Source of the DNA: Nakamurella endophytica
GTDB taxonomy: Bacteria > Actinomycetota > Actinomycetes > Mycobacteriales > Nakamurellaceae
NCBI RefSeq assembly: GCF_014646215.1
Contig: NZ_BMNA01000006.1
Location: 1-64,000 of the forward strand
Direction of reading: 5' to 3'
DNA: 64,000 bases
In this document: piece by piece, positions 67 through 12,994 of the stretch
Numbering within the stretch: the stretch's first letter is position 1
Layout: every line of letters begins with the position of its first letter
Made by a program: the position numbers and the translations under genes
Notes under the pieces: generated by a model
Told to the model about the DNA's origin: nothing
Databases searched by the model: none
What the model saw: the letters and a program-made list of their open reading frames with translations, nothing else

Positions 67-615
67 CTAGACCCGGATCACGCACAAGGCCTCCCGAGGC
101 CGGTTCTGACCCGGTGGACCACGGCGCCGCACCGGCCCCCATGACGTCAACGCTGCCAGCCGCGCTGCAGGATCGCGCCAGAGCCGGCCGGACAGCAGCA
201 GCGCGAGCGTGAGCGCGGTGCCGGTGACCAGGAACAGGACGCAACCGGCCAGGTCGCCATGATCAGTCGGAGAATCCGCAGGCTTGGGCGCCGTCGCAGG
301 ACCATGCGCAGGATCGTTCACCGCGGGTGGCGCCACCTCTGCGGTCATCGCATCGACTTGGTCGTCGACGGTGATCATCATCGCGGTGGCGTCCCCGGTG
401 GGCCGCTCAGTGGTCGCGTGGGTTGACTGCACTGCGTGTACACGGTCGGATGTACCGCTGGCGCCGGCGGGCAGCAGCGCGCCGTGCCCTCCGGCTGAGT
501 CCTCAGCGGTGAGTACGTGCATGCCGAACAGGCCTGCGAGCACGGCGAGCAGCATCGCGCACCGCAGCGGCAGCGGCGCCCGCCGCCAGCTGACTCGCTG
601 CCTACCGCCCCGCAC
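67..615 (-). CDS. DUF6153-like small membrane protein
   Basis: A protein of about 182 residues with one hydrophobic helix near the N-terminus (MLLAVLAGLFGMHVL), a His/Thr/Pro-rich extracytoplasmic stretch, and a second helix (LAGCVLFLVTGTALTLALLL). The basic C-terminus ends in LCVIRV, which resembles the tail of actinobacterial DUF6153 proteins. The function of that family is unknown. The start is uncertain: GTG at 615 keeps a basic leader before the first helix, and ATG at 555 starts at the helix itself. It lies about 80 bp downstream of nuoN on the same strand and is probably the last gene of the complex I-like operon. The middle region is rich in His and Met, so a metal-related role is possible but inferred only from context. 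Confidence 0.6.
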   Translation of the reverse strand: MRGGRQRVSWRRAPLPLRCAMLLAVLAGLFGMHVLTAEDSAGGHGALLPAGASGTSDRVHAVQSTHATTERPTGDATAMMITVDDQVDAMTAEVAPPAVNDPAHGPATAPKPADSPTDHGDLAGCVLFLVTGTALTLALLLSGRLWRDPAARLAALTSWGPVRRRGPPGQNRPREALCVIRV

Positions 616-695: not shown

Positions 696-2129
696 TCACG
701 GGATGGCACCCAGGATCGGCAGCGAGCCAGCTCCAACACCGAGGAGCAGCACACCAGCGGCGGCGAGGACCACGGTCCGCTCCGCCCATGGCCGGCGCTC
801 CGAGATGTCGCGTCGATCGACGTGTCCCTCAGCGCGGTCGCCTGCTCGCGCCGGGCGGGCGAACGTCGGGGCGAGCCAGCGCAGGAAGTAGAACAGGCTG
901 GCCACGGTGTTGACCGCGGCGACGATGACGAGCCAGGCCAGTCCCCCGTCCCAGGCGGCGGTGAAGGTGGTGAGCTTGCCCAGGAACACCGCGGTCGGGG
1001 GGGTGCCGACCAGGGACAGCAGCGCGACCAGCAACGCTCCGGCCAGCCAGGGCCGGCTCGTGCCCAGACCTCGGTAGGCGGCCAGGTCGGTGCGGTGGGG
1101 CACCGCCGCGACGACGGCGAAGGCGGCGAGGTTGCTCACGGCGTACCCGGCCAGGTAGAGCAGCAGGGACGGTTCGGCCAGCGGGGTGCGGCCGGCGACG
1201 GCCACGGGCAGGAGCAGGAAACCGACCTGGCTGACGGTGGACCAGCCGAGCAGGCGCCGCGGGTCCCGCTGGGCGAAGGCGGCGAAGGTGCCCACCGTCA
1301 TGGACAGCGCGGACAACGCGGCGACCAGCAAGGGCCAGTCGGCCACTCCCGGAAGCGCGTCGATGAGACGGTACATCGCCACCAGCGCGCCGACCTTGGG
1401 CACGGTGGTCAGGAACGCGGCCGCGGCGGTGCTGGCGCCCTGGGCGGCGTCCGGGACCCAGAAGTGCCCGGGCACCGCGCCGGCCTCGAACAGCAACCCG
1501 GCCAGCACCGCCACCGCACCGACAGCGACCACCGCCGGCACGACCGAACCCGAAGTGCTTGAGCCGGCGTACCCGGTGCCGCCGGTCATGGCGAACAGCA
1601 GGGTGACCCCGAGCAGCATCACGATGCCGAACAACGCCCCCAGCAGGTACGTCTTCATCACCGCTTCTGCGGCCCGGGCGGTGCGGCTGATCCCGATGAG
1701 CGCGTACAGCGGGATGCTGGTGAGCAGGTAGGCCACCGCGAGCACCATCAGGTCGGTGGTGCCGGCCAGCACGACGGCCCCGGTCGCGGACAGCAGCACC
1801 AGGCAGCAGGTCTCGCTCTCCCGCGGCGACCCGCGCAGTTCCTCGGTGCCCAGCAGCAGCACCAGCGCCGTGGCCACCGCGATCACCAGCCGGACGGTGC
1901 CGGTGGCCGCGTCGACGGCGTAGCTGTCGGCGAACACCGACCGGTCCGGGCCGGCCAGCGCGACGACGGCGGCCGTGGCGGCCGCCCCGCAGGCCGCCAG
2001 GGCGACGATCCGGGCGATCCACTGCCGCTGCCGGGGCAGGAACGAACCGGTCAGCAGGGTGGCGATGGCGCCGGCGAGCAGGCAGATCTCCGGGAGCAGG
2101 GCGAGCGGGTCCTCGCCCATGCCCGTCAC
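696..2129 (-). CDS. nuoN: NuoN-like antiporter subunit of complex I-like system
   Basis: A polytopic membrane protein of 477 residues (474 if ATG at 2120 is used) related to NADH-quinone oxidoreductase subunit N, one of three antiporter-like proton-channel subunits. GTG at 2129 overlaps the nuoM stop by 4 bp. Family landmarks are present: LLPEICLLAG at the N-terminus, SIPLYALIGISR, VPGHFWVPDAAQG, TTVPKVGAL and RRLLGWSTVSQVGF. Two charged channel residues look changed. The TM5 glutamate that normally precedes SLPLY is absent (AYLLTSIPLY), and the TM7 lysine before the VPxHxWxPD motif is glutamate (FEAGAVPGHFW). The second lysine (VPKVG) is kept. It may therefore conduct differently from a standard NuoN. 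Confidence 0.85.
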   Translation of the reverse strand: MTGMGEDPLALLPEICLLAGAIATLLTGSFLPRQRQWIARIVALAACGAAATAAVVALAGPDRSVFADSYAVDAATGTVRLVIAVATALVLLLGTEELRGSPRESETCCLVLLSATGAVVLAGTTDLMVLAVAYLLTSIPLYALIGISRTARAAEAVMKTYLLGALFGIVMLLGVTLLFAMTGGTGYAGSSTSGSVVPAVVAVGAVAVLAGLLFEAGAVPGHFWVPDAAQGASTAAAAFLTTVPKVGALVAMYRLIDALPGVADWPLLVAALSALSMTVGTFAAFAQRDPRRLLGWSTVSQVGFLLLPVAVAGRTPLAEPSLLLYLAGYAVSNLAAFAVVAAVPHRTDLAAYRGLGTSRPWLAGALLVALLSLVGTPPTAVFLGKLTTFTAAWDGGLAWLVIVAAVNTVASLFYFLRWLAPTFARPARAGDRAEGHVDRRDISERRPWAERTVVLAAAGVLLLGVGAGSLPILGAIP

Positions 2130-3625
2130 CGGCCGACCAGGGAGACCACGACGTCCGCCGCGGGCTCGATGACCTCCAGCAGGAACCGGGGCACGATCCC
2201 GATGACCACGGCCAGCACCAGCAGCGGGCCGGCCGACAGCAGTTCGACCGGTCGCAGGTCGGCGAAGCCGGCCGACTTCGGACCCGGTGCCCCGGTGAGC
2301 AGCCGCTGGATCGCCCGCAGGAACAGCGCCGCGGTGATGAGGATGCCGGGCAGCGCCAGCGCCGCCCACCCGGTGGCGCCGATGCTGCCGGTGAAGACCT
2401 GGAACTCCGCGATGAACCCGCTGAACCCGGGCAGCCCGAGGGAGGCGAACGCCGCGACGGCCAAGAAGCCGGCGAAGCGCGGCGCCGGTCCGGCCAGCCC
2501 GCCGAAGTCGGCGAACTCGTAGCTGCCGGCGCGCCGGTGCAGCACCCCGGCCAGCAGGAACAGCGCACCGGTGATGAGCCCGTGGCTGACCATCTGGGTC
2601 ACCGCGCCGGACACCGCGACCTGCCGGGCGGCGGCGTCGGTCCCGGTGACCACCCCGGCCGCACCGACGGCCAGGACGACGTACCCCATGTGATTCACCG
2701 AGGTGTAGGCGATCATCCGCTTGACGTTGCTCTGGGCCAGGGCCACCAGCGCCCCGTAGAGCACGGACACCACACCGACGGCCACGACGACACCCGCCCA
2801 GGCCCGCCAGGCGTCCGGCAGCATCGGCATGGCGATGCGCACGAAGCCGTAGGTCCCCAGCTTCAGCAGGACGCCGGCCAGCACCGCCGACCCGATGGCC
2901 GGAGCGTCGGTGTGGGCCGGCGGCAGCCAGGTGTGGAAGGGGAAGGTCGGGGTCTTCACCGCCAGTCCGACCAGGACCGCGGCGAGCACCAGACCGCCGA
3001 CCGCTCCGCTGCCCTGCAGGGGGGCCGCGGCGATCAGCGCAGGGATGTCGAAGGTGTGCGGGTCGGCGGCCAGGTACAGCCCGATGAAGCCCACGAGCAG
3101 GGCGAGGGACCCAAAGAACGTGTACAGGAAGAACTTCAGCGCCGAACGGGCCGCGGTGACGCCGTGTCCCCAGCCGGCGATGACGAAGTACATCGCCACG
3201 ATCGACAGGTCGAAGAACAGGAAGAACAGGATGAGGTCCTGCGCGACGAACACCCCGAGACAGGTCGTCTGCAGGAAGCAGAACAGCGCCGCCTGGGTCC
3301 GCGGCCGGGTGCGTTCGGCCAGCGCGTACACCGCGCAGGCAGCGAAGACGACCGTGGTCAGCGCGAGCAACGGCAGAGACAAGCCGTCGACGCCGACGTG
3401 GTAGCTGCTGCCCACCGACGGCAGCCACCGGACCTGCTCGACGAAGGCCAGCCCGCCGTCCGGCGGCGTCCGGTAGGCGATCCACAGTCCGACCACGATG
3501 CCCAGGTCGGCGACCGAGATCCCGACCCAGGTCCACCGGGCGACGCCGTCGGGCAGCCGGCGCGCCGCCGCGAGCACCGCAGCGCCGACCAGGGGCAGGA
3601 ACACCAACACGCTGAGCACGTTCAT
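2126..3625 (-). CDS. nuoM: NuoM-like antiporter subunit
   Basis: A polytopic protein of 499 residues of the NuoM/Mrp antiporter family. Its ATG overlaps the nuoL stop as ATGA, so the two are translationally coupled. Conserved channel elements can be read: LAVKTPTFPFHTWLPPAHTD (TM7 lysine), VLLKLGTYG (central lysine), SNVKRMIAYTSVNHMGY and GFIAEFQVF (the C-terminal glutamate/lysine-equivalent position). The TM5 acidic residue sits in FFDLSIVAMYF, so it is Asp where most NuoM proteins have Glu (FFE). The proton-path framework is otherwise intact, so this subunit is likely functional. It normally pairs with NuoL and NuoN in the membrane arm. Confidence 0.92.
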   Translation of the reverse strand: MNVLSVLVFLPLVGAAVLAAARRLPDGVARWTWVGISVADLGIVVGLWIAYRTPPDGGLAFVEQVRWLPSVGSSYHVGVDGLSLPLLALTTVVFAACAVYALAERTRPRTQAALFCFLQTTCLGVFVAQDLILFFLFFDLSIVAMYFVIAGWGHGVTAARSALKFFLYTFFGSLALLVGFIGLYLAADPHTFDIPALIAAAPLQGSGAVGGLVLAAVLVGLAVKTPTFPFHTWLPPAHTDAPAIGSAVLAGVLLKLGTYGFVRIAMPMLPDAWRAWAGVVVAVGVVSVLYGALVALAQSNVKRMIAYTSVNHMGYVVLAVGAAGVVTGTDAAARQVAVSGAVTQMVSHGLITGALFLLAGVLHRRAGSYEFADFGGLAGPAPRFAGFLAVAAFASLGLPGFSGFIAEFQVFTGSIGATGWAALALPGILITAALFLRAIQRLLTGAPGPKSAGFADLRPVELLSAGPLLVLAVVIGIVPRFLLEVIEPAADVVVSLVGR

Positions 3626-5568
3626 CCTCCAAACACGAACAGGACGCTCACCGCGGCGAGCGCCGCTGCGGCGGTCAGGACGATGACGACCTGGGCGTAG
3701 TACTGGTGCAGCTGGCCGGTCTGCGGGCGCCGAGCCAGGGTGCCCAGCCCGCGGGCACCGCGCGCGATGCTCTGCACCGCGCGGTCGATGCCGGCCCCGT
3801 CGACCCGAGCGGTGACGCCGGCCAGTCGGACGCCGCCGCGCGCGGTCCCGTCCACCGCGCGATCGAGTGCCCGGTCGTCGAAGCGGGCCGCCCACCGACC
3901 GGCGGCCAGCACCGACGACGCCGCGGCGCGCACGCCGGCGTCCACCACGCGGTCGTCGAACCGAGCCAGCTGCTGCGCCAGGGCCAGGACCGGCCCGACG
4001 ACCACCCGGTGGGCCGCGCCCTCCAGGCCGAGCCAGCCCACCGCCCAGCCCAGCCGAGGCGCTCCGCGCCACAGCACCAGCACGACCACGGCCACCGACA
4101 CCACCCCGGACAGCAGCAGCGACGTCCAGTCGGCCGTGGGACTGGTGGTGTCCCCCAGCACCCGACGCACGGCCGACCCAACCGGCGGCAGCGCCAACAC
4201 GCTCAGCACGGACGCCGCCCCGGCCAGCGGCACCATCGGCCACCGCTCGGCCCACCCGACCCGGCGGGTGCCCCGTTCCTGCCGGTCGTACCGGTCCTGG
4301 ACCCCAACCGGAGCCGGAGCCAGGACGACCCGCAGCACCTTCGCCGCGTACGCCGCCGACAGCACCGCACCCACGAGCCCGGTCAGGTACAGCGGGAGCG
4401 AGGTCTCCCGGGCAGCGGCCAGGACCTCGTCCTTCGTCGCCCACAGCGAGAGTGGCGGCACACCGGCCAACGTCACCGCCCCGACCCCGGCGCACCCACC
4501 GACCAGCGGCCACCGCCGCCCCACCCCACGCAGCGCGGCAAGCTCTCTGGTCCCCAGCGCCGACAGCCAGGCCCCGGCGGCCAGGAACAGCAACGCCTTG
4601 GTGGCGGCGTGCGCGATGAGGTGGGCGGTGCCGCCGGCCACCGCCGACACTCCGGCGGCCAGCACCACGAAGCCCAGCTGGGCCGCCGTCGACGCGGCCA
4701 ACAGCTGCTTGAGGTCACGCTGGGCCACAGCCACCAGCCCCACCAGCACCGCGGTCACCGCACCGGCCCACGCCGCCACCTGTGCCGCCCAGCCCGCCGC
4801 GGCCAGCAGCGGCGCCGTACGCAGCAGCAGGAACCCGCCCATCGCGACCATCGCGGCCGAGTGCAGCAGCGCGCTCACCGGGCTGGGACCCTGCATGGCG
4901 CGCGACAGCCAGAACGAGAACGGCAGCTGCGCCGCCTTGCCCAGCGCGGCGACCAGCACCCCACCGGCCGCCACGTGGAGCCAGATCCCGGACGCGGCGG
5001 GCAGGTCCGCCAGCGCCCAGCCGGCGCTGCCGGCCAGCGCCGCCGCCGCGGCCGCGTACAGCCCGAGATCGGCCAACCGGGTGGTCAGGAAGGCCGTCCC
5101 GCCGGCGGCGACGTCCTCGGGCCGGTGCCAGCGGAAGCCGATGAGCGCGTACGACGTCGCGCCCATCACCTCCCACGCGACCAGCAGCGTGGGCAGCGTC
5201 GTCGCGGTCACCGTGACGGTCACCGCCGCGGAGAACAGCAGCATCAGCCCGAAGAACCGACCGGTCGCACCACCGATGTCGCCGCCGGCGAACACCAGCA
5301 CGAACAGCGTGACAGCCGCGACCGCGGGCAGCACGAGCGCCGCCAGACCGTCCACGGCCAGGGCGAAGTCCGCGCCGGCCAGGAACGGCACCGACACCAC
5401 CGGCCGGGCCAGAGCCACCACCACCGCCAGCACCAGGTCGACGACGGCGACCGCGACGGCGACGGCCGCAGGACGCCGACCGTCGGACCCGAGCAGGCAC
5501 AGCACGACCCCGGCCGTCGCCGGGAGCAGCACCGCGGCCACCAGCGCCGCCTGGCTCACCACGGCCAC
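3622..5568 (-). CDS. nuoL: NuoL-like antiporter subunit
   Basis: A protein of 648 residues in the NuoL/MrpA family and the distal proton-pumping subunit of complex I. It carries the full set of channel motifs: WEVMGATSYALIGF (TM5 glutamate), ALGKAAQLPFSFWL and GPSPVSALLHSAAMV (TM7 lysine and following loop), RDLKQLLAASTAAQLG and HAATKALLFLAAG. The long C-terminal part corresponds to the lateral helix region and ends in a hydrophobic segment. A GTG start at 5568 is used, with GTGs at 5562 and 5559 as alternatives. It starts 25 bp after the nuoK stop and overlaps nuoM by 4 bp. Confidence 0.92.
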   Translation of the reverse strand: MAVVSQAALVAAVLLPATAGVVLCLLGSDGRRPAAVAVAVAVVDLVLAVVVALARPVVSVPFLAGADFALAVDGLAALVLPAVAAVTLFVLVFAGGDIGGATGRFFGLMLLFSAAVTVTVTATTLPTLLVAWEVMGATSYALIGFRWHRPEDVAAGGTAFLTTRLADLGLYAAAAAALAGSAGWALADLPAASGIWLHVAAGGVLVAALGKAAQLPFSFWLSRAMQGPSPVSALLHSAAMVAMGGFLLLRTAPLLAAAGWAAQVAAWAGAVTAVLVGLVAVAQRDLKQLLAASTAAQLGFVVLAAGVSAVAGGTAHLIAHAATKALLFLAAGAWLSALGTRELAALRGVGRRWPLVGGCAGVGAVTLAGVPPLSLWATKDEVLAAARETSLPLYLTGLVGAVLSAAYAAKVLRVVLAPAPVGVQDRYDRQERGTRRVGWAERWPMVPLAGAASVLSVLALPPVGSAVRRVLGDTTSPTADWTSLLLSGVVSVAVVVLVLWRGAPRLGWAVGWLGLEGAAHRVVVGPVLALAQQLARFDDRVVDAGVRAAASSVLAAGRWAARFDDRALDRAVDGTARGGVRLAGVTARVDGAGIDRAVQSIARGARGLGTLARRPQTGQLHQYYAQVVIVLTAAAALAAVSVLFVFGG

Positions 5569-5593: not shown

Positions 5594-5896
5594 TCATCCG
5601 GCGAGGTCCGCAGCCATGTCGGTCATGTCCGACTGCCGAGAACGGTGCAACACGGTGGCCACGGCGAAGCCCATGGCCATCTCCACGGTCATCGCGGCCA
5701 GCACCACCAGCAGCAGCACCGCACCGTCGATCTGCGGAGCCAGGAACCACAGCACTGCCGCGACGGCCAGGATCACCGCGTTCAGCATGAGCTCCAGCCC
5801 CATCATCACCATCACCACGACCTGCTGGGACAGAGCGCCGTACAGGCCCACGCAGAACAGGGCCGCCACCACGATCAACACGGCCGGCAGGCTCAC
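5594..5896 (-). CDS. nuoK: NuoK-like subunit
   Basis: A protein of 100 residues with three transmembrane helices, the usual size for NuoK. The GTG start at 5896 overlaps the nuoJ stop (GTGA). Both functionally important membrane glutamates are kept: MGLELMLNAVIL in helix 2 and TVEMAMGFAV in helix 3. NuoK links the quinone-site side of complex I to the antiporter subunits, so retention of both glutamates argues that ion translocation is still under selection. The C-terminal tail has an unusual Met/Asp-containing sequence (SDMTDMAADLAG). Confidence 0.9.
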   Translation of the reverse strand: MSLPAVLIVVAALFCVGLYGALSQQVVVMVMMGLELMLNAVILAVAAVLWFLAPQIDGAVLLLVVLAAMTVEMAMGFAVATVLHRSRQSDMTDMAADLAG

Positions 5897-6456
5897 CGCC
5901 CCACCCCGCCCCGTTGCGGGTCGGTGGGCGGGCGCCGCCGCAGGTCGTCGCCGAGCCGGTCGTACCGGCCGCGCGGCATGGCCAGCACCAGGGCCGCCAC
6001 GATCGTGGCGAACAGCACCGGGCTGACCGTGAGCATGACCAGCATCTTGGGTCCCATGATCGATTCGCCGAGCGCTCTGGTGACGTCCGCGATCGGAGTG
6101 CCGCGTCGAGATGGCCACGGCACCAGCAGCACCCCGACCGTGAGCACGACGAAGAGCCCGACCGACAGGCCCAAGGCGGTGCGCCTGCCGTGCACCATGC
6201 TCATCGGCATCAACGCCGGGTTCATGCCCATGAACATGACCATGTAGACGGCCATGATCGCCATCTCCATGATCATCATGAGGGCGGTGACGACCCCCAG
6301 GTAGTCCTGCCGGAACAGCACCAGGACCACTGCCACCGCGACGAACGAGGCAGCCAGGCAGTACGTCGCCCGCGCCATCGAGTCCACGCGGAACACCAGC
6401 GCCCCGAACACCACCGCGACGCCGGCCAGCACCCAGAACGCCACCGTGCTCAGCAC
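5893..6456 (-). CDS. nuoJ: NuoJ-like subunit
   Basis: A membrane protein of about 187 residues matching NuoJ, with five hydrophobic helices and the segment LFRQDYLGVVTALMMIMEMAIMAVYMVM, quoted here by its key parts YLGVVTALM and EMAIM. A strong ribosome binding site (AAGGAGGAG at 6465-6472) favours GTG at 6456 or 6462. The frame stays open to TTG 6477, but that codon would lie upstream of the ribosome binding site. Met is enriched around the second and third helices (MFMGMNPALMPMSMVHG). It follows nuoH after an 85-bp gap and overlaps nuoK. Confidence 0.85.
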   Translation of the reverse strand: MLSTVAFWVLAGVAVVFGALVFRVDSMARATYCLAASFVAVAVVLVLFRQDYLGVVTALMMIMEMAIMAVYMVMFMGMNPALMPMSMVHGRRTALGLSVGLFVVLTVGVLLVPWPSRRGTPIADVTRALGESIMGPKMLVMLTVSPVLFATIVAALVLAMPRGRYDRLGDDLRRRPPTDPQRGGVGR

Positions 6457-6525
6457 TCCCACCGCTCCTCCTTCCAAATGCGGTCCCGGGGAGCCCGAGG
6501 ACGCGCCGACGCCGCCCCGGTTCCT

Positions 6526-6562: not shown

Positions 6563-7507
6563 TCACCGAGCCACCACCACGACCGAGACCACGAGCAGCT
6601 GCAGCAGTGTCACCGGCACCAGCACCAGCCACCCGACCTCCATGAATCGGTCCGGTCGCAGCACCGGCAGCCGGCGCCGCAGCACCACCAGCGCGGACAG
6701 CACGGCAAGCGTCTTGAGGGCCATCCACGCCCATGCGGGCAGCAGCGGTCCCGCACCGCCGCCGAGGAACAGCGCCGCGGCGAACCCCGAGCCCGCGGTG
6801 AGCAGCAGGTACCGGCCGGCCAGCACGATCAGCCGGTCGACGCCCGAGGCCTCGGCCAGCACGCCTCCGGCGATGTCCGAGCCGGCCGGGGCGCTCAGCG
6901 GTCCAAACACCGAGAAGCCGGCCACGCCCAGGCAGAAGGCGAGAAAGGCGACCGGCATCCACACCACGAACCACAGGCTCTGCTGGGCCTGCACCACCCC
7001 ACCGATCCGCAATGTTCCCGCGGCCACCGCCGGTGCCGTCAGCGCGAACATCAGGGGAAGCTCGTAGGCAAGCGCCTGGGCCAGGAAGCGGTACCCGCCG
7101 ATCAACGCGTGCGCGCTGTTGGGCCCCCATCCGGCCAGCCAGACCGCCGCCCACACCGCCACGTCCACCGCGTTGAACCACACCACGCCCACCGGCCAGT
7201 CGACGAGCGTCCAGCGGCCGAGCGGCAGCACCGCGGCCATGAGCAGCGCCGCGACCGGCAGCGCGGCCACCCCGATCCGCCACAGCAGCACGTCGGCCGC
7301 CACGGGGACCCGGCGCCGCTGCCGGAGCAATCGCGCCACCGCAGCGGTGACCGTGCGACGCCGACCCGGTCGAGCCCGGTCTGCCCGACCGGCCGGCACC
7401 GAGTCCAACGCTGCGTCCAGGGCCGCCGCGACCACCGCGCCGGCCAGCAGGACCAGGGCGACCACCGGCGCCCACCCCGCGCTCAGCGGCGTCACGCCCC
7501 CGGTCAC
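6563..7507 (-). CDS. nuoH: NuoH-like subunit, shortened
   Basis: A protein of 314 residues related to NuoH, the membrane subunit that normally forms the quinone chamber with NuoB and NuoD. GTG at 7507 overlaps the upstream stop by 4 bp. Recognisable parts are AGWGPNSAHALIGGYRFLAQ and ALAYELPL (NuoH GWSSNNKYSLLGAMR...QTLSYE), the GPLLPAWAWMALKT segment and the RPDRFMEVGW end. It is shorter than the usual 330-420 residues. The N-terminal RxGPNRVG...QPxADxxK region is barely recognisable, and the acidic cytosolic loop EAExEL that contacts quinone is replaced by APAGSDIAGGVLAEASG. A quinone-binding role is doubtful. Confidence 0.82.
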   Translation of the reverse strand: MTGGVTPLSAGWAPVVALVLLAGAVVAAALDAALDSVPAGRADRARPGRRRTVTAAVARLLRQRRRVPVAADVLLWRIGVAALPVAALLMAAVLPLGRWTLVDWPVGVVWFNAVDVAVWAAVWLAGWGPNSAHALIGGYRFLAQALAYELPLMFALTAPAVAAGTLRIGGVVQAQQSLWFVVWMPVAFLAFCLGVAGFSVFGPLSAPAGSDIAGGVLAEASGVDRLIVLAGRYLLLTAGSGFAAALFLGGGAGPLLPAWAWMALKTLAVLSALVVLRRRLPVLRPDRFMEVGWLVLVPVTLLQLLVVSVVVVAR

Positions 7508-8736
7508 GAGCCGGCCCCCGGATGCCGACGCACGATGGACGCGTCCGGGTCCAGGCTGGCCACGACCAGGCGTGCCGCGGCGAGGTCGAGCCCGGTCACC
7601 AGCTCGGGCAGCCGGTCGAGGCGTTGTCGTTCCAGCTGCGGATCGGCCGGTTCCCCGGCGCCTCGGTCCAGCAGCAAGTCCCGTGCGTGGTCGAGCCGCG
7701 TGAGCAGCCGGTCCCGCACGTCCCCGCGCAGCAGTGCCGGAACGTCGTCGGGGACGCCGCCCGGCGGCCACGGTGCCCGACCGAGCACGCCGAGCCCGCG
7801 CACCGACCAGCGCAGCAGCCGCGAGCGCCGGACCTGGCGGGTCACCTGCGCCACCTCCTGCGCGCAGTCCTCCAACGGTGCTCTGTCCAGGATGCCGTCG
7901 CGGACCCGCCGAAGACGCTGCGACAGGTGGTCCCAGCCCGCGACGGCCAGGAACCGCGCGGCGCTGTCGCACTCGGCGGCGGCGCGCCGGGCCTGCCATC
8001 CCTCCGTTGTGCCTGCCATGATCTTGGGCGCGTGGTCCGCAGCTGGTCCCAGCGTTGACACCTGGGCTTGGACCACAACGTCACCGTGCAGCACGCACCG
8101 CACGACCAGCCCGGCCGGCCAGTGCGGCAGCACCGGTCCCAGCGGCACCGTGAGCTCATCCATCTCCAGGCCGTCGCGGTCGTCCTGCGCTCCGCTCGCC
8201 AGCGGCACGCCGCCCGGCATCGGCATGTCCATGTTCATGTCACCGGAGTCGTCCATGTCGTCCATGTCGTCCATGTCGTCCATGTCGTCCATGTCGCCCG
8301 AGTGATCCACATGGTCAGATCGATTCTGATTGCCATCGGACTCGGCGGGTGCGGGTGCGGGTGCCAAGCTCGATTCCTCGAGATCGGTGGCCTGCCCTCG
8401 GCTGCCGGCGTCAGCGCGCTGTCGAGGGGTATCCAGCAGGGCAGTAGCGGCCTGCTCGAGAACGGCGGCGCAGTCCCGCACGTCGTCCACCAACACCCGC
8501 GCCCGAGGCCCCGGCAGCTGCATCCACACCGCCTGCACCGCCTGAGCGAACTCGCGACCGGGACGGCCGCAGACGGCCAGGACGTCCGCGTCGGCCGGGC
8601 TGGTCGCGAGTCGCCAACCGCGGCACCGGACCTGCCGCTCCACCGCGACCCGCGTGTCGGCCCACCCCGGAACCTCGACGAGCAGCACCGACGCCGCCCG
8701 CACCGCCGCTCCCGTCACCCGCTCGCTCAGACCCAT
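7504..8736 (-). CDS. Degenerate NuoB/NuoD-like fusion with Asp/Met-rich linker
   Basis: A soluble protein of 410 residues occupying the place of nuoB-C-D. Residues 14-100 resemble NuoB without its cluster: SPADADVLAVCGRPGREFAQ and AVWMQLPGPRARVLVDD parallel the NuoB stretch SPRQADVLIVAG...YDQMPEPRWVISMG, but the CC/C/C ligands of cluster N2 are absent. Residues 192-400 resemble NuoD: LTVPLGPVLPHWPAGLVVRC and HGDVVVQAQV parallel GPxHPxxHGVLRLVLxLDGE. Between them lie acidic and His/Met-rich sequences (DHVDHSGD, a five-fold MDD repeat, then MNMDMPMPGG). The start ATG overlaps nuoA by 10 bp. The resemblance is by eye and needs a profile search. It is probably a structural, non-redox peripheral cap, possibly binding metal. 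Confidence 0.6.
   Translation of the reverse strand: MGLSERVTGAAVRAASVLLVEVPGWADTRVAVERQVRCRGWRLATSPADADVLAVCGRPGREFAQAVQAVWMQLPGPRARVLVDDVRDCAAVLEQAATALLDTPRQRADAGSRGQATDLEESSLAPAPAPAESDGNQNRSDHVDHSGDMDDMDDMDDMDDMDDSGDMNMDMPMPGGVPLASGAQDDRDGLEMDELTVPLGPVLPHWPAGLVVRCVLHGDVVVQAQVSTLGPAADHAPKIMAGTTEGWQARRAAAECDSAARFLAVAGWDHLSQRLRRVRDGILDRAPLEDCAQEVAQVTRQVRRSRLLRWSVRGLGVLGRAPWPPGGVPDDVPALLRGDVRDRLLTRLDHARDLLLDRGAGEPADPQLERQRLDRLPELVTGLDLAAARLVVASLDPDASIVRRHPGAGS
8248..8292. repeat. Five-copy 9-bp tandem repeat inside the NuoB/D-like gene
   Basis: Five perfect copies of GTCGTCCAT (plus strand) encode the Met-Asp-Asp repeats on the minus strand. The copies are identical at the DNA level, which points to recent slippage expansion. 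Further His, Asp and Met codons flank the repeat on both sides. Confidence 0.9.
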
Positions 8737-9077
8737 CGCAGCGCTCCCTCACGCCACGCCCACAGCACACCGAGCAGGAGGAGCCCGAGGAACACGAACA
8801 TCTCGACCACCGCGCCGGCGCCCACCTCCCGGACGACCACCGCCCAGGGGTACATGAAAACCATTTCGACGTCGAAGGCCAGGAAGATCAAGGTCGCTGG
8901 GTACCAGCGGACGTGGAACCGCGAGAGCGCGTGCTCGTTAGGGCGCCAAGCGGACAGGAACGGCAGCACACCCAGCGGGCGTGGGTCGACCGCGGTGCGG
9001 AGGGCGACCCACCACAGGAGGGCGACCGAGACAAGGGCGGTGAACAGCATCGAGGCCACCCCGACCAACGTCGACAT
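8727..9077 (-). CDS. nuoA: NuoA-like subunit
   Basis: A protein of 116 residues with three transmembrane helices, matching NuoA. The family core is clear: SRFHVRWYPATLIFLAFDVE followed by MVFMYPWAVV. The loop that normally contains the conserved Glu-Cys-Gly next to the quinone tunnel reads FLSAWRPNEHALS and lacks the cysteine. The ribosome binding site GAGGAGGGC (9081-9089) lies 4-5 bp before the ATG. It starts 40 bp after the copper-storage-like gene and overlaps the next gene by 10 bp. Confidence 0.9.
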   Translation of the reverse strand: MSTLVGVASMLFTALVSVALLWWVALRTAVDPRPLGVLPFLSAWRPNEHALSRFHVRWYPATLIFLAFDVEMVFMYPWAVVVREVGAGAVVEMFVFLGLLLLGVLWAWREGALRWV

Positions 9078-9116: not shown

Positions 9117-9521
9117 TCAGCCGAGGCTGTCGAGCAGTTGGCGGCACGCCTGCTCACAGCGCCGGCATGCCTGAGCGCAGACGCGACAGTGGCCGTGCAT
9201 TCCAGCGTGCGACTCACACTCATTCCCGCACGCCTTGCACGCCGCCGCGCATGCCTCCAACACAGCGCGAGTCGCGCTCGCGTCGGACCCGGCAAGCCGA
9301 GTCAGCACCCGCCCGGTCGCCTCACACACGTCCGCGCAGTCCAGGTCGGTCCGGAAGCACGTGACGAGCTCGACGACCGTGTCCTCACTCACGCAGGCGT
9401 CGGCGCATGCCGCGCACGCCTGCGCACACTCCGCGCACGCTTGGATGCACTGCACCAGGACGTCCCGGTCGACTCCGGCCAATCCTCTGGTGCTGAGCAC
9501 CGCGTCCGGACCGCTCATCAT
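9117..9521 (-). CDS. Four-helix-bundle copper-binding protein (Csp-like)
   Basis: A protein of 134 residues with 18 cysteines placed mostly as CxxxC and CxxC along predicted helices (for example CIQACAECAQACAACADAC). This is the pattern of DUF326/copper storage proteins, which bind many Cu(I) ions inside a four-helix bundle. There is no signal peptide, so it should be cytosolic, like Csp3. The C-terminal part adds His residues (ESHAGMHGHC). The ribosome binding site GGGAG at about 9527-9531 supports ATG 9521 (a second ATG follows at 9518). It is the first gene of the minus-strand operon containing the nuo-like genes and is divergent from an ArsR-type regulator. Confidence 0.9.
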   Translation of the reverse strand: MMSGPDAVLSTRGLAGVDRDVLVQCIQACAECAQACAACADACVSEDTVVELVTCFRTDLDCADVCEATGRVLTRLAGSDASATRAVLEACAAACKACGNECESHAGMHGHCRVCAQACRRCEQACRQLLDSLG

Positions 9522-9609
9522 GGGTGCTCCCTTCCGCTCGAGTCGCGGGCACGCCCACCCTCTGACCTGTCCTCTCCCGTCACAATCGAGAGCGACTCAC
9601 GCACGCACA

Positions 9610-9636
9610 ATAACCGCAAACTCGTACGGATAACCG
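9610..9636. promoter_or_regulatory. Direct-repeat candidate operator between csp-like gene and arsR
   Basis: Two identical ATAACCG heptamers at 9610-9616 and 9630-9636 start exactly 20 bp apart, two helical turns. They lie in the divergent intergenic region 20-46 bp before the arsR start. Position and spacing fit a regulator-binding site, but SmtB/ArsR operators are usually inverted repeats, so the assignment is tentative. Confidence 0.35.
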
Positions 9637-9655
9637 GCTGAGAGGCAACTCCACC

Positions 9656-10039
9656 ATGACGTCGGACGCCGAGCCGCACCAGCACCCCGTCGACCCTGTG
9701 CGAGTGCAGTGCGCCCGCGACCATCTGCCCCCCCTGGAGGACGTCGCGCGCACCGCGAGCATCTTGAGCCTGCTCGGCGACCCCACTCGTGCCCGTGTCC
9801 TGTATGCCTTGGACATCGTCGAAGAGCTGTGTGTCGGTGATCTTGCCCTCGCCCTGGACAGCAGCGAAGACGCCATCGGCTACGCCCTACGGATCCTGCG
9901 CACCGCCGGCCTGGTCAACAACCGCAAACAAGGGCGCGTCGTCTACTACCGCCTCGCCAGCGGCTTCCCTGAACCACTGCTGGATCACTGCCTGCGCCGC
10001 CTGGTCGACCTGTCAGCGGACACCGAACCGGACGAGTGA
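9656..10039 (+). CDS. ArsR/SmtB-family metal-responsive repressor
   Basis: A winged-helix regulator of 127 residues. The fold is readable: LLGDPTRARVLYALD, ELCVGDLALALDSSEDAIGYALRIL (recognition helix region, key residues SSEDAIGYALR) and LVNNRKQGRVVYYRLA (wing). The ELCVGDLA segment is the SmtB/ZiaR-type alpha3 with Cys. An N-terminal extension carries His and Cys (PHQHPVDP, VQCARDH), and the last helix has LLDHCLRRL. These supply candidate ligands for a soft or borderline metal. The ribosome binding site GAGAGG is at 9640-9645. It is divergent from the copper-storage-like gene and the nuo-like operon, so it probably controls them in response to Cu(I), Zn or Cd. Confidence 0.88.
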   Translation: MTSDAEPHQHPVDPVRVQCARDHLPPLEDVARTASILSLLGDPTRARVLYALDIVEELCVGDLALALDSSEDAIGYALRILRTAGLVNNRKQGRVVYYRLASGFPEPLLDHCLRRLVDLSADTEPDE

Positions 10040-10098: not shown

Positions 10099-10422
10099 CT
10101 ACCGCTCGAGGTCTCGGCCGTCGTCCGCGGCTTCGAGGTGCCGGTCGTCATCGCGGACTCGGAGCCCGTCGACGCTGCGTCGCGCTGCCGCCGACCGCTG
10201 CTGCTGTTGCTGTTGTTGCAGGTTGGCGCGGTACCGCTCGGTCATCCGGGCGGTCCGTTCGTTGAGGTCGACGAGTCGTTCCAGGGCCTGGATCAGCCGC
10301 TCGGCCACCGGAGCCGTCGACCATCCACCGGGTGGCGGTGACCCGGGGAACGGCAGCCTCGCCCGCGGAAGCAGCGGATCGGCGTCACGGTCGGGTCGGC
10401 GTGGGGGTCCGGGTGCAGTCAT
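10099..10422 (-). CDS. Hypothetical protein with polyglutamine tract
   Basis: A 107-residue protein of unknown function. It has a Pro/Arg-rich N-terminus, a predicted short coiled coil (VAERLIQALERLVDLNERTARMTERY, key heptads LIQALERL and LNERTARM), then seven consecutive glutamines and a charged tail. It begins 19 bp after the lipoprotein gene. Genes like this often close the lipoprotein end of actinobacterial conjugation modules, but no specific family is recognised. Confidence 0.55.
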   Translation of the reverse strand: MTAPGPPRRPDRDADPLLPRARLPFPGSPPPGGWSTAPVAERLIQALERLVDLNERTARMTERYRANLQQQQQQQRSAAARRSVDGLRVRDDDRHLEAADDGRDLER

Positions 10423-10440
10423 CGCGGAGGGTCCTTTGCG

Positions 10441-11079
10441 TCAGTAGTCGCGGCTGGCGATGCGCCAGCCGTCGGCGGTGCGGACGGCGGTGAGGGTGAC
10501 CGCCAGCGCCTCGTCGGGCGGGTCGCCGCCGGTGGCGCAGGTGGTGTGCAGGGTGCCGGCGGCCTGGACGTGGGCGGTGCTGTCGGTGCGGGGCGCTTCG
10601 GGCGGGATCACGGCGGCGGCGTCGACGACGCGGGCGGTGCAGCGGCGGTCGACGAAGTCCTGCCAGGCCACGCCGGGGCCGCGGCCGTCCCGTCGCAGCT
10701 GAAGGTTCTGCTGCGCGAGCTGCTCGGTGACGTAGGGGGCGGTGCGGTCGATCCAGGCATCGGCCGCGCCGGTGAAGCTGGCCGTCCGGTAGGCGACCAG
10801 CCAGGCCACCGCCAGCTGCTCGACCGCGGCGGTCGGTTCCTCGGCCGCTGAGAAGCCGGCCGAGTTCGTCGGCGGGGATGGCGGCGCGGCGACCCTCGTC
10901 TGGATGCCGGTCGGGCTGGCAGTGCCAGACGGTGTGGGGCTGGGAGCGGCGAGGCGGACGGTCGGCGGCGCGCCCGCCGTGGGTGTGCCGGCGGGCGCGG
11001 TGCACGCGGCCGTCCCCGCGGCGATCGGGGCGGCCAGCAAGGTCAGCAGCAGCCGGCTGGCGCCGGCGCGACCGCTCAT
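10441..11079 (-). CDS. Conjugation-module-type lipoprotein
   Basis: A 212-residue protein with a basic start, a hydrophobic stretch and a lipobox ending in TAACTAPAG, so it is probably a secreted lipoprotein. A Pro/Ser/Thr-rich linker follows. The globular domain (AVEQLAVAWLVAYRTASF, WIDRTAPYVTEQLAQQN, ending VRTADGWRIASRDY) looks like an NTF2/VirB8-like domain as found in actinobacterial integrative and conjugative element cargo. The ATG overlaps the stop of the NlpC/P60 gene (ATGA), which is typical of the NlpC-lipoprotein pair in such elements. No other transfer genes are present in the window. Confidence 0.6.
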   Translation of the reverse strand: MSGRAGASRLLLTLLAAPIAAGTAACTAPAGTPTAGAPPTVRLAAPSPTPSGTASPTGIQTRVAAPPSPPTNSAGFSAAEEPTAAVEQLAVAWLVAYRTASFTGAADAWIDRTAPYVTEQLAQQNLQLRRDGRGPGVAWQDFVDRRCTARVVDAAAVIPPEAPRTDSTAHVQAAGTLHTTCATGGDPPDEALAVTLTAVRTADGWRIASRDY

Positions 11080-12082
11080 GCGCCCGGCCGGACGGCGCCG
11101 ATGAACTCGGCGCCGCGGTTGCCGCCCCAGATGCCGCTGCTGATCTTGACCACATCGCCGGACTGCGGCGCCTCGACCATGCGGTCGTCGCCGAGGTAGA
11201 TGCCGACGTGGTGGATGCCGTTGGCGGCGCCGTTGCTGGAGTACAGGAGCAGGTCGCCGGGCTGCAGGGCGGCTCGGTCGGTCAGGTGACCGAAGGCGGC
11301 CCAGATCGCCTGGGTCTGGTGCGGCACGGCGACGCCGATGCCGGCGTAGGCGTACAGCGCGAGGCCGGAGCAGTCGAACCCGACCTTGGCGTAGTCGCCG
11401 TGGGCGTCGGCCACTCCCCCGTCCCGCATGCCCAGGGTGGGGCCGTTGGCGTCTCCGCCGCCCCATGAATAGGTCACGCCGAGCTGGCTCAGCGCCCGGT
11501 TGATCACCGCCTCGGCGCGCGGGTTGCTGGGCAGGCTGACCGACGTGCCGCCGCCAGGACCGGCCCCGGCGGAGGCGGTGCAGGTGCGGCCCTCGACGGC
11601 GCCGACGACCTGGTTGGCCGGCTGCTCCCACTTGGCGTAAGCGTCGGGGGTCTCGGACTGCTGCACCCGCTGCGCGGCCACGGTGACCGGCAGCTGCTCC
11701 AGCCGGCAATGTCCGGCAGGCCGGTGTAGAACATCGCCGCGGACTTCGCCGGGTCGAGCCGGTCAGCCAGCGGTCCAGGCATCGAGCTGCTGGAACAGCC
11801 CCCGGGAGGACGACATCGGGCCGTTTGTGATCGTCGCGCCGGTCCTGGTGGACCTCGGGTCCCAGACCCTGGCGCGTAGGGCGAAAGGTTGAGGATTAGC
11901 GCGTCACCGGTCGGGGGGGGGTGGGACGGGACGTCCTCGGCGCCGCTCGGGGTGGACGCTTGTGCCGCCGCGGCCTTGGCGCTGAGCAGGGCACCGGTGA
12001 CGAGCAGGGTCCACGTGGAACCCGTGGCGATCCGGCCGGTGCTACGAGTGGTGGGGGGAACTGAGTTCCTCCAGTGCGTCAT
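11076..12082 (-). pseudogene. Frameshifted NlpC/P60 endopeptidase of conjugative-element type
   Basis: The C-terminal NlpC/P60 domain (about 11076-11680) is intact, with VGFDCSGL (catalytic Cys), HHVGIYLG (catalytic His) and a following PQSG. Upstream the same protein continues but changes frame. ADRLDPAKSAAMFYTGLPDIAGW is readable in one frame, here named by its core DPAKSAAMFYTG. The expected EQLPVTVAAQRV continuation is in another frame after an apparent 1-nt loss near 11700. SSRGLFQQLDAW precedes it in a third frame and runs into a stop at 11763-11765. An Ala-rich signal-like segment lies near 12000. At least two frameshifts break the N-terminal half, so the full secreted protein is probably not made. 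Confidence 0.7.
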
Positions 12083-12198
12083 GGCGACCGGTGTGGTGCC
12101 GGCCGCCGGCCGGGCCCGTCCCGACACCCGTGAACCTGGCGGGGTGCGGCCGCCGGCGAGCCGGGTGATCGGCCGATGACCAGGGGAACGCGACTCCG

Positions 12199-12295: not shown

Positions 12296-12994
12296 TCAGT
12301 CGGCGAGGTGGCGCCACCAGGTGACGCCGTCGCCGATCCGGCGGAACCCGGCGGTCCGGTAGAGCAGCTCGCCGTCGGGGGTGGCGTTGAGCACCGCATG
12401 CCGCGCGCCGGCGCGCCGCGCACCCGCGCACACCGCCGCCAGCAGGGCGGTGCCCAGCCCGCGCAGCCGGAACGGCGGCCACACCTCCATGTCGAAGACG
12501 CCGGCCAGCTCGCCGTCGACGAACGACCAGGCGTGACCTGCGAACCGGCCGTCGACGTGCGCGCCCGCGTACCACGCGCGGGTCGGCTGCTCGCGAGCCA
12601 GCGCCAGGAGCCGGCCGTACGCCGCGTGCTCGCCCTGGTAGTCATCGGTCTCGAGCTGGAGGCGGACCCGCTGGTCGGCCTCGGCCGGGACGTCCACCAG
12701 CTGGGCGGCCATCCACCACGGCGACCAGCCGCGCTCGAACCCGACCTGTTCCAGCGGCGCGGGATTTACGTCCGGGCCGAGCCACGCCCCGACGACGTCC
12801 CGACCGAGCCCGCGGGCGCGGGCGACACCGCGACGGAGCGCCGGCGCGTCGAGGAGCGTCGGCAACAGCACGTTCCTGCCGTCAGGGCCCGTCCATCCAC
12901 GACATCCCGCCGTCGTCCACACAGTCCCTCCGTCCGCGCGGGCTTGACTGCTGAACCACGCGGCCTGCACTCGCTCGCAGTCGGCCACCGTCAC
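12296..12994 (-). CDS. GNAT-family N-acetyltransferase
   Basis: A 232-residue protein with a C-terminal GNAT domain. The acetyl-CoA motif is RLRGLGTALL (R/Q-x-x-G-x-G/A), preceded by GVFDMEVWPPF (motif with the beta-bulge) and followed by RHAVLNATPDGELLYRTAGF. The N-terminal half resembles a second, degenerate acetyltransferase fold. It starts at GTG 12994. The substrate is unknown. It stands alone between mobile-element remnants and the PIN gene. Confidence 0.8.
   Translation of the reverse strand: MTVADCERVQAAWFSSQARADGGTVWTTAGCRGWTGPDGRNVLLPTLLDAPALRRGVARARGLGRDVVGAWLGPDVNPAPLEQVGFERGWSPWWMAAQLVDVPAEADQRVRLQLETDDYQGEHAAYGRLLALAREQPTRAWYAGAHVDGRFAGHAWSFVDGELAGVFDMEVWPPFRLRGLGTALLAAVCAGARRAGARHAVLNATPDGELLYRTAGFRRIGDGVTWWRHLAD

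Follow-up and report, generated by a model that had tools for sequence, protein, structure and literature searches.

Repressors of the SmtB type often sense Zn or Cd, with SmtB, ZiaR and CadC responding to Zn(II) or Cd(II)/Pb(II), while CsoR is a copper sensor. Csp3 proteins are described as Cu(I) stores (PMC10155185). Among complex I variants, the accessible part of a 2025 survey reports fusions that join subunit D to C, or D to B and C, and a fusion of B and D only was not found there (PMC12361115). Here we analyze a locus of Nakamurella endophytica in which a csp gene, a divergent SmtB-type repressor gene and a complex I-like operon lie side by side, and which we interpret, with a probability of about 0.7, as the head that places a copper-response operon under the control of metal repressors.

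Organization of the operon head

The window, that is the whole stretch of 64,000 nucleotides analyzed (contig NZ_BMNA01000006.1), carries the following features at the head of the operon:

9117..9521, minus strand: csp, cytosolic copper storage protein of the Csp3/Ccsp type (134 residues, 18 Cys)
9611..9632, no strand: candidate ArsR operator TAACCG-N10-CGGATA, between csp and arsR (consensus TACCCG-N10-CGGGTA)
9656..10039, plus strand: arsR, SmtB-type metal-sensing repressor (127 residues; HxHP...ELCVGD)

Both genes are present where the initial annotation had placed them, and the identity of csp as a gene encoding a Csp protein with 18 Cys was confirmed. Indeed, the product matches PF03860 (5.9e-10) and, over residues 13-134, the Csp3/Ccsp protein of S. 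lividans (PDB chain 6q6b_B, 4.7e-46), all 18 Cys aligning with Cys of 6q6b, and no signal peptide was evident by inspection. Judging from this alignment, it is the orthologue of S. lividans Csp3 and is predicted to bind Cu(I) in the cytosol. The csp and nuoA (9077-8727) genes share a strand and are separated by 39 nt, in which a scan of the head found no terminator-like site, its single terminator-like match being the candidate operator itself. A scan of the same region for sigma-70 promoters found none, as may be expected in a high-GC actinobacterium.

The arsR gene diverges from csp across a 134-bp gap, and a palindromic candidate operator lies at its own promoter. Its product matches NCBIfam NF033788 (69.8 bits for a cut-off of 55), and its nearest solved relative is SmtB (best PDB match, 7.6e-14). 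The earlier proposal of an ArsR-type sensor with Cys and His ligands holds in part: HxHP and ELCVGD are present in the 17 readable orthologues out of 17, which designates HxH together with the Cys and Asp of ELCVGD as candidate metal ligands. On the other hand, the CxxxH sequence of the window protein was rejected as an SmtB-like site because Cys19 is replaced by Ala or Arg in the orthologues.

A complex I-like operon with modified subunits

Downstream of csp, the window contains the following genes:

8727..9077, minus strand: nuoA-like subunit (PF00507, 8.9e-24)
7504..8736, minus strand: fused NuoB-NuoD-like protein without cluster and quinone-site features, hinge at residues ~140-176
6563..7507, minus strand: nuoH-like subunit, quinone loop replaced
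5893..6477, minus strand: nuoJ-like subunit (PF00499), start possibly at 6462
5594..5896, minus strand: nuoK-like subunit (PF00420)
3622..5568, minus strand: nuoL-like antiporter subunit, proton-path residues kept
2126..3625, minus strand: nuoM-like antiporter subunit, proton-path residues kept, TM5 Glu changed to Asp
696..2129, minus strand: nuoN-like antiporter subunit, TM5 Glu lost, TM7 Lys changed to Glu here
67..594, minus strand: DUF6153-like membrane protein, weak family match, start uncertain

No gene for NuoC, E, F, G or I is found when the gene order of the operon is read directly, and relatives carry the same eight genes. That the DUF6153 gene closes the operon is right as to its position, last and on the same strand, but its match to PF19650 is weak (21.6 bits, below the cut-off of 27.7) and a gap of roughly 100 bp precedes it. 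Scans of the window against Rfam and for tRNAs gave no matches. Next to arsR, positions 10385-12127 encode an NlpC/P60-like and a lipoprotein-like product which, by eye, are of a kind seen in actinobacterial conjugative elements, and the operon possibly lies at the border of such an element.

Across 112 loci, the acidic motif of the NuoH quinone loop is replaced by WGPF...GxDIAGGVxAE. In NuoL and NuoM, the key residues show little or no variation, with the exception of the Glu to Asp change in TM5 of NuoM. The TM5 glutamate of NuoN, on the other hand, is missing in 106 loci out of 106, and nearly all of them have a Leu in its place. At the position of the NuoN TM7 lysine, a charge swap is observed, with Lys in 79 and Glu in 26 of the 106 loci, the window being among the latter.

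The profile of the fused B-D protein matches NuoB over a short core (2.1e-6), and residues 179-404 of its structure model (mean pLDDT 83.7) superpose on NuoD of mycobacterial complex I (8e9h_D; Z 17.6, 3.4 A, 208 residues). As the rows of the structure alignment are mostly residues 180-404, the assignment of the N-terminal half rests on the sequence profile. The CC pair of the N2 cluster cysteines is absent from the window protein (P0005), and 16 of 112 B-D proteins contain at most one Cys in total. Lacking NuoC, E, F, G and I as well as the NuoB cluster cysteines, and with its quinone loop replaced, the complex is thus predicted to be unable to carry electrons.

The hinges that join the two halves of the B-D proteins are rich in Met (7.6%), His (11.9%) and Asp (16.0%), versus 1.1, 2.5 and 7.7% elsewhere in the same proteins, and MDHG/HGDM repeats are frequent in them. 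These repeats recall the copper-binding segments of CopA/PcoA-type proteins, which is a lead only. The hinge of the window protein (residues ~140-176) is rich in Met and Asp, and some hinges have almost no Met or His, with two or fewer in 15 of 109 proteins. An MxM motif directly before the NuoD-like part is nearly invariant among 41 aligned B-D proteins. By homology, the hinge region faces the cytosol, and its composition suggests that it probably binds copper.

Distribution of the operon and conservation of its head

The fused B-D protein served as a tag for finding related loci, genomes being scanned with an 8-row B-D alignment since a 30-row alignment was too divergent. Of the 298 genomes scanned in the order, 53 encode it. 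Across actinobacteria, we gathered 80 named loci, in Arthrobacter, Cryobacterium, Kineococcus, Modestobacter, Micromonospora, Salinispora, Mycolicibacterium, Nocardioides and others. The core order A-BD-H-J-K-L-M-N is constant in every locus complete enough, the exceptions being loci at contig ends.

The initial annotation had called for a check of whether other genomes conserve the csp-nuoA junction, and the outcome was negative: among the loci compared, no direct junction was found outside this genome, where it occurs twice, in the window and in a copy on contig C7 whose csp is frameshifted, an intact csp lying nearby. Because the direct junction is confined to this genome, the presence of csp in cis is a local variation; what is conserved is the control through a metal regulator. 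In Micromonospora halophytica, a single DUF305-like gene separates the operon from csp, which lies upstream in the same orientation. The C7 copy (L035; G000:C7:48000-66000, 12528-12922) repeats the whole head and operon, with B-D proteins 81% identical; beside it lie another csp, which is intact and has the same operator, as well as a DUF6153 gene, a gene for a DUF305-like lipoprotein and a P-type ATPase fragment.

Of the 113 unique loci, 18 encode an orthologue of ArsR (mostly 60-75% identity) close to the operon, usually divergently from nuoA. Furthermore, a comparison of 39 genomes revealed divergent arsR-csp pairs at nine further places, not all of which are close to a nuo-like operon. We read this ArsR as a Csp3 repressor that took in the complex I-like operon, or the reverse.

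Candidate operators at the nuoA promoters

Reading the DNA upstream of the loci with ArsR orthologues revealed the palindrome TACCCG-N10-CGGGTA, of which the window site is a degenerate version matching 10 of 12 positions. Among 41 loci, perfect copies of TACCCG/CGGGTA number 10 at a spacer of 10 and 0-1 at each other spacer from 0 to 24, and in eight of these loci, including L037 and L041, the palindrome lies 43-77 bp before nuoA. At these two loci, the box is at the nuoA promoter, yet arsR is located beyond nuoN, at the opposite end of the operon. A box near nuoA is found at 15 of the 18 loci with an ArsR orthologue versus 2 of the 94 without. In the whole 4.94-Mb genome, a pattern fitted to the window site retrieves three sites, all at csp/arsR (one in the window, one at the contig C7 copy and one at the second csp promoter), and the backward control pattern gives one match. 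The ArsR box defines a candidate regulon.

A second type of operator was found in relatives. The CsoR box TACCCC-N3-GGGGTA, whose consensus was taken from PMC3902906, precedes nuoA by at most 400 bp in 18 of 112 loci, and ArsR is missing there. CsoR half-sites at other spacers occur at 0-1 loci, and shuffles give 0.25 on average. No locus among the 112 carries both boxes; the window has the ArsR box and no CsoR box. Since CsoR senses copper, the metal at the CsoR-box loci is probably copper.

The recurrent neighbors of the operon are genes for DUF305 proteins, CsoR, copper ATPase, CopZ, multicopper oxidase and Csp. CsoR genes are found at 16 loci versus 0.55 expected from genome-wide counts and Csp genes at 14 versus 0.23, figures that overstate the strength of the enrichment because the loci share ancestry and are not phylogenetically independent. 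As 45 of 113 unique loci have neither a copper neighbor, an ArsR orthologue nor an operator, the copper link is common, not universal. The loci devoid of a copper sign (e.g. L099, L108, L136 and L142) include Mycolicibacterium and Salinispora loci in recurring chromosomal contexts. In the flanks of L075-L154, genes for TlpA thioredoxin, CcdA/DsbD, BlaI, an M48-type peptidase and a BNR-repeat lipoprotein recur, also where csp is missing.

Discussion

The suggestion made from the window sequence, namely that the nuo-like operon is metal-induced and linked to copper, gains comparative support from the ArsR and CsoR operators predicted at nuoA promoters, from the uniqueness of the ArsR operator genome-wide and from copper-gene neighbors far above expectation. 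In the mechanism that we propose, a dimer of the SmtB-type ArsR would occupy 9611-9632 at low metal and repress both arsR and the csp-nuo-like operon. Binding of a metal, most likely Cu(I), to the N-terminal HxH arm and to the Cys and Asp of ELCVGD would release ArsR. The cell would then produce Csp3, which would sequester Cu(I) in the cytosol, along with a complex I derivative presumed unable to carry electrons and keeping the proton paths of NuoL and NuoM. As the B-D hinge probably binds copper, we propose that copper at this site might gate or drive ion movement through the membrane arm, the candidate step being a Cu+/H+ exchange or a metal-gated proton path. These proposals differ in strength: control of the operon by metal is well supported and very likely, copper is probably the usual signal, and transport of copper by the complex I derivative itself is doubtful.

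That csp, arsR and the nuo-like operon simply travel together in metal islands, the complex I derivative being unrelated to metal, would agree with the 45 of 113 loci without any copper link, with the arsR-csp pairs found apart from nuo-like genes and with the exact csp-nuoA junction not being conserved. However, operators of two unrelated families of metal regulators lie at nuoA promoters with a sharp spacer specificity, and L037 and L041 have the box at nuoA with arsR at the other end, which makes mere neighborhood quite improbable. The nature of the signal is a separate matter: since SmtB-type repressors are often Zn or Cd sensors, the ArsR branch may not sense copper, and Csp3 would act as a general thiol sink in a response to Zn(II) or Cd(II)/Pb(II). 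SmtB is the closest solved relative of ArsR, and the HxH/Cys/Asp set resembles the second site of SmtB (alpha3N), both points in favor of such a signal. Against it, the predicted regulon of ArsR consists of csp and of the same operon that bears CsoR boxes in relatives, and Csp3 proteins are Cu(I) stores (PMC10155185), so that we regard a Zn, Cd or Pb signal as unlikely.

As another alternative, a proton-conducting arm could be induced by metal and not handle it, restoring the pH or the membrane potential after copper damage to respiratory iron-sulfur proteins, with the hinge as a merely flexible or buffering linker. The invariance of the proton-path residues of NuoL and NuoM, the absence of the redox parts and the hinges devoid of Met and His all fit such a role, whereas the enrichment in Met, His and Asp and the MDHG/HGDM repeats of most hinges are hard to explain for a neutral linker; we hold this to be a serious possibility, if short of even odds. 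The copper-handling proposal in its complete form, a copper transport machine derived from complex I by discarding redox chemistry, endowed with a copper-binding B-D hinge and Cu+/H+ exchange and induced by ArsR or CsoR with or beside Csp3, is tentative and rather doubtful as a whole. The reading of the region as the control head of a copper-response operon concerns its regulation, and it is this one that we favor.

In the literature searched, which covered few subscription papers, no complex I-like operon was found as a member of the CsoR regulon or under copper regulators. The accessible text of the Kineococcus radiotolerans copper proteome (PMC2928746) does not mention complex I-like subunits, which speaks neither for nor against our reading. 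If the latter is true, a copper-controlled, non-respiratory branch, present in many actinobacterial genera and likely annotated simply as NADH dehydrogenase, would be added to the complex I superfamily. Such operons would offer a direct handle on the role of the complex I membrane arm when electron transfer does not drive it.

Comparison with known systems

Csp3, SmtB-type repressors and complex I relatives are all of known kinds. The csp product resembles S. lividans Csp3/Ccsp (PDB 6q6b, 6ek9) in its 18 Cys and cytosolic type; unlike that of S. lividans, the csp gene diverges from an SmtB-type arsR and precedes a complex I-like operon. ArsR shares with SmtB and the ArsR-SmtB repressors the winged-helix family, the ELCVGD motif, the divergent layout and the operator between the genes, but the C-terminal alpha5 ligand set of SmtB is apparently not kept (alignment by inspection), and ArsR is distinguished by a conserved N-terminal HxHP arm and a GC-rich palindrome of 22 bp with a 10-nt spacer. 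The likeness to the CsoR copper regulon of actinobacteria resides in the candidate CsoR operator at nuoA, present in 18 loci and absent from the window, and in the CopZ, CopA, Csp and DUF305 neighbors.

With energy-converting hydrogenase-related (Ehr) complexes and Mrp antiporters, the operon shares a membrane module of the complex I superfamily, antiporter-like subunits and redox chemistry that is absent or doubtful. We know of no counterpart among them for its set of subunits, its B-D fusion, its copper regulators and its copper-gene context. With respiratory complex I (NuoA-N), it has A, H, J, K, L, M, N and a B-D pair of NuoB/NuoD ancestry in common. It differs from respiratory complex I by lacking C, E, F, G, I and the N2 cluster ligands, by its replaced quinone loop, by the fusion of B and D through a hinge rich in potential metal ligands and by its placement under metal repressors.
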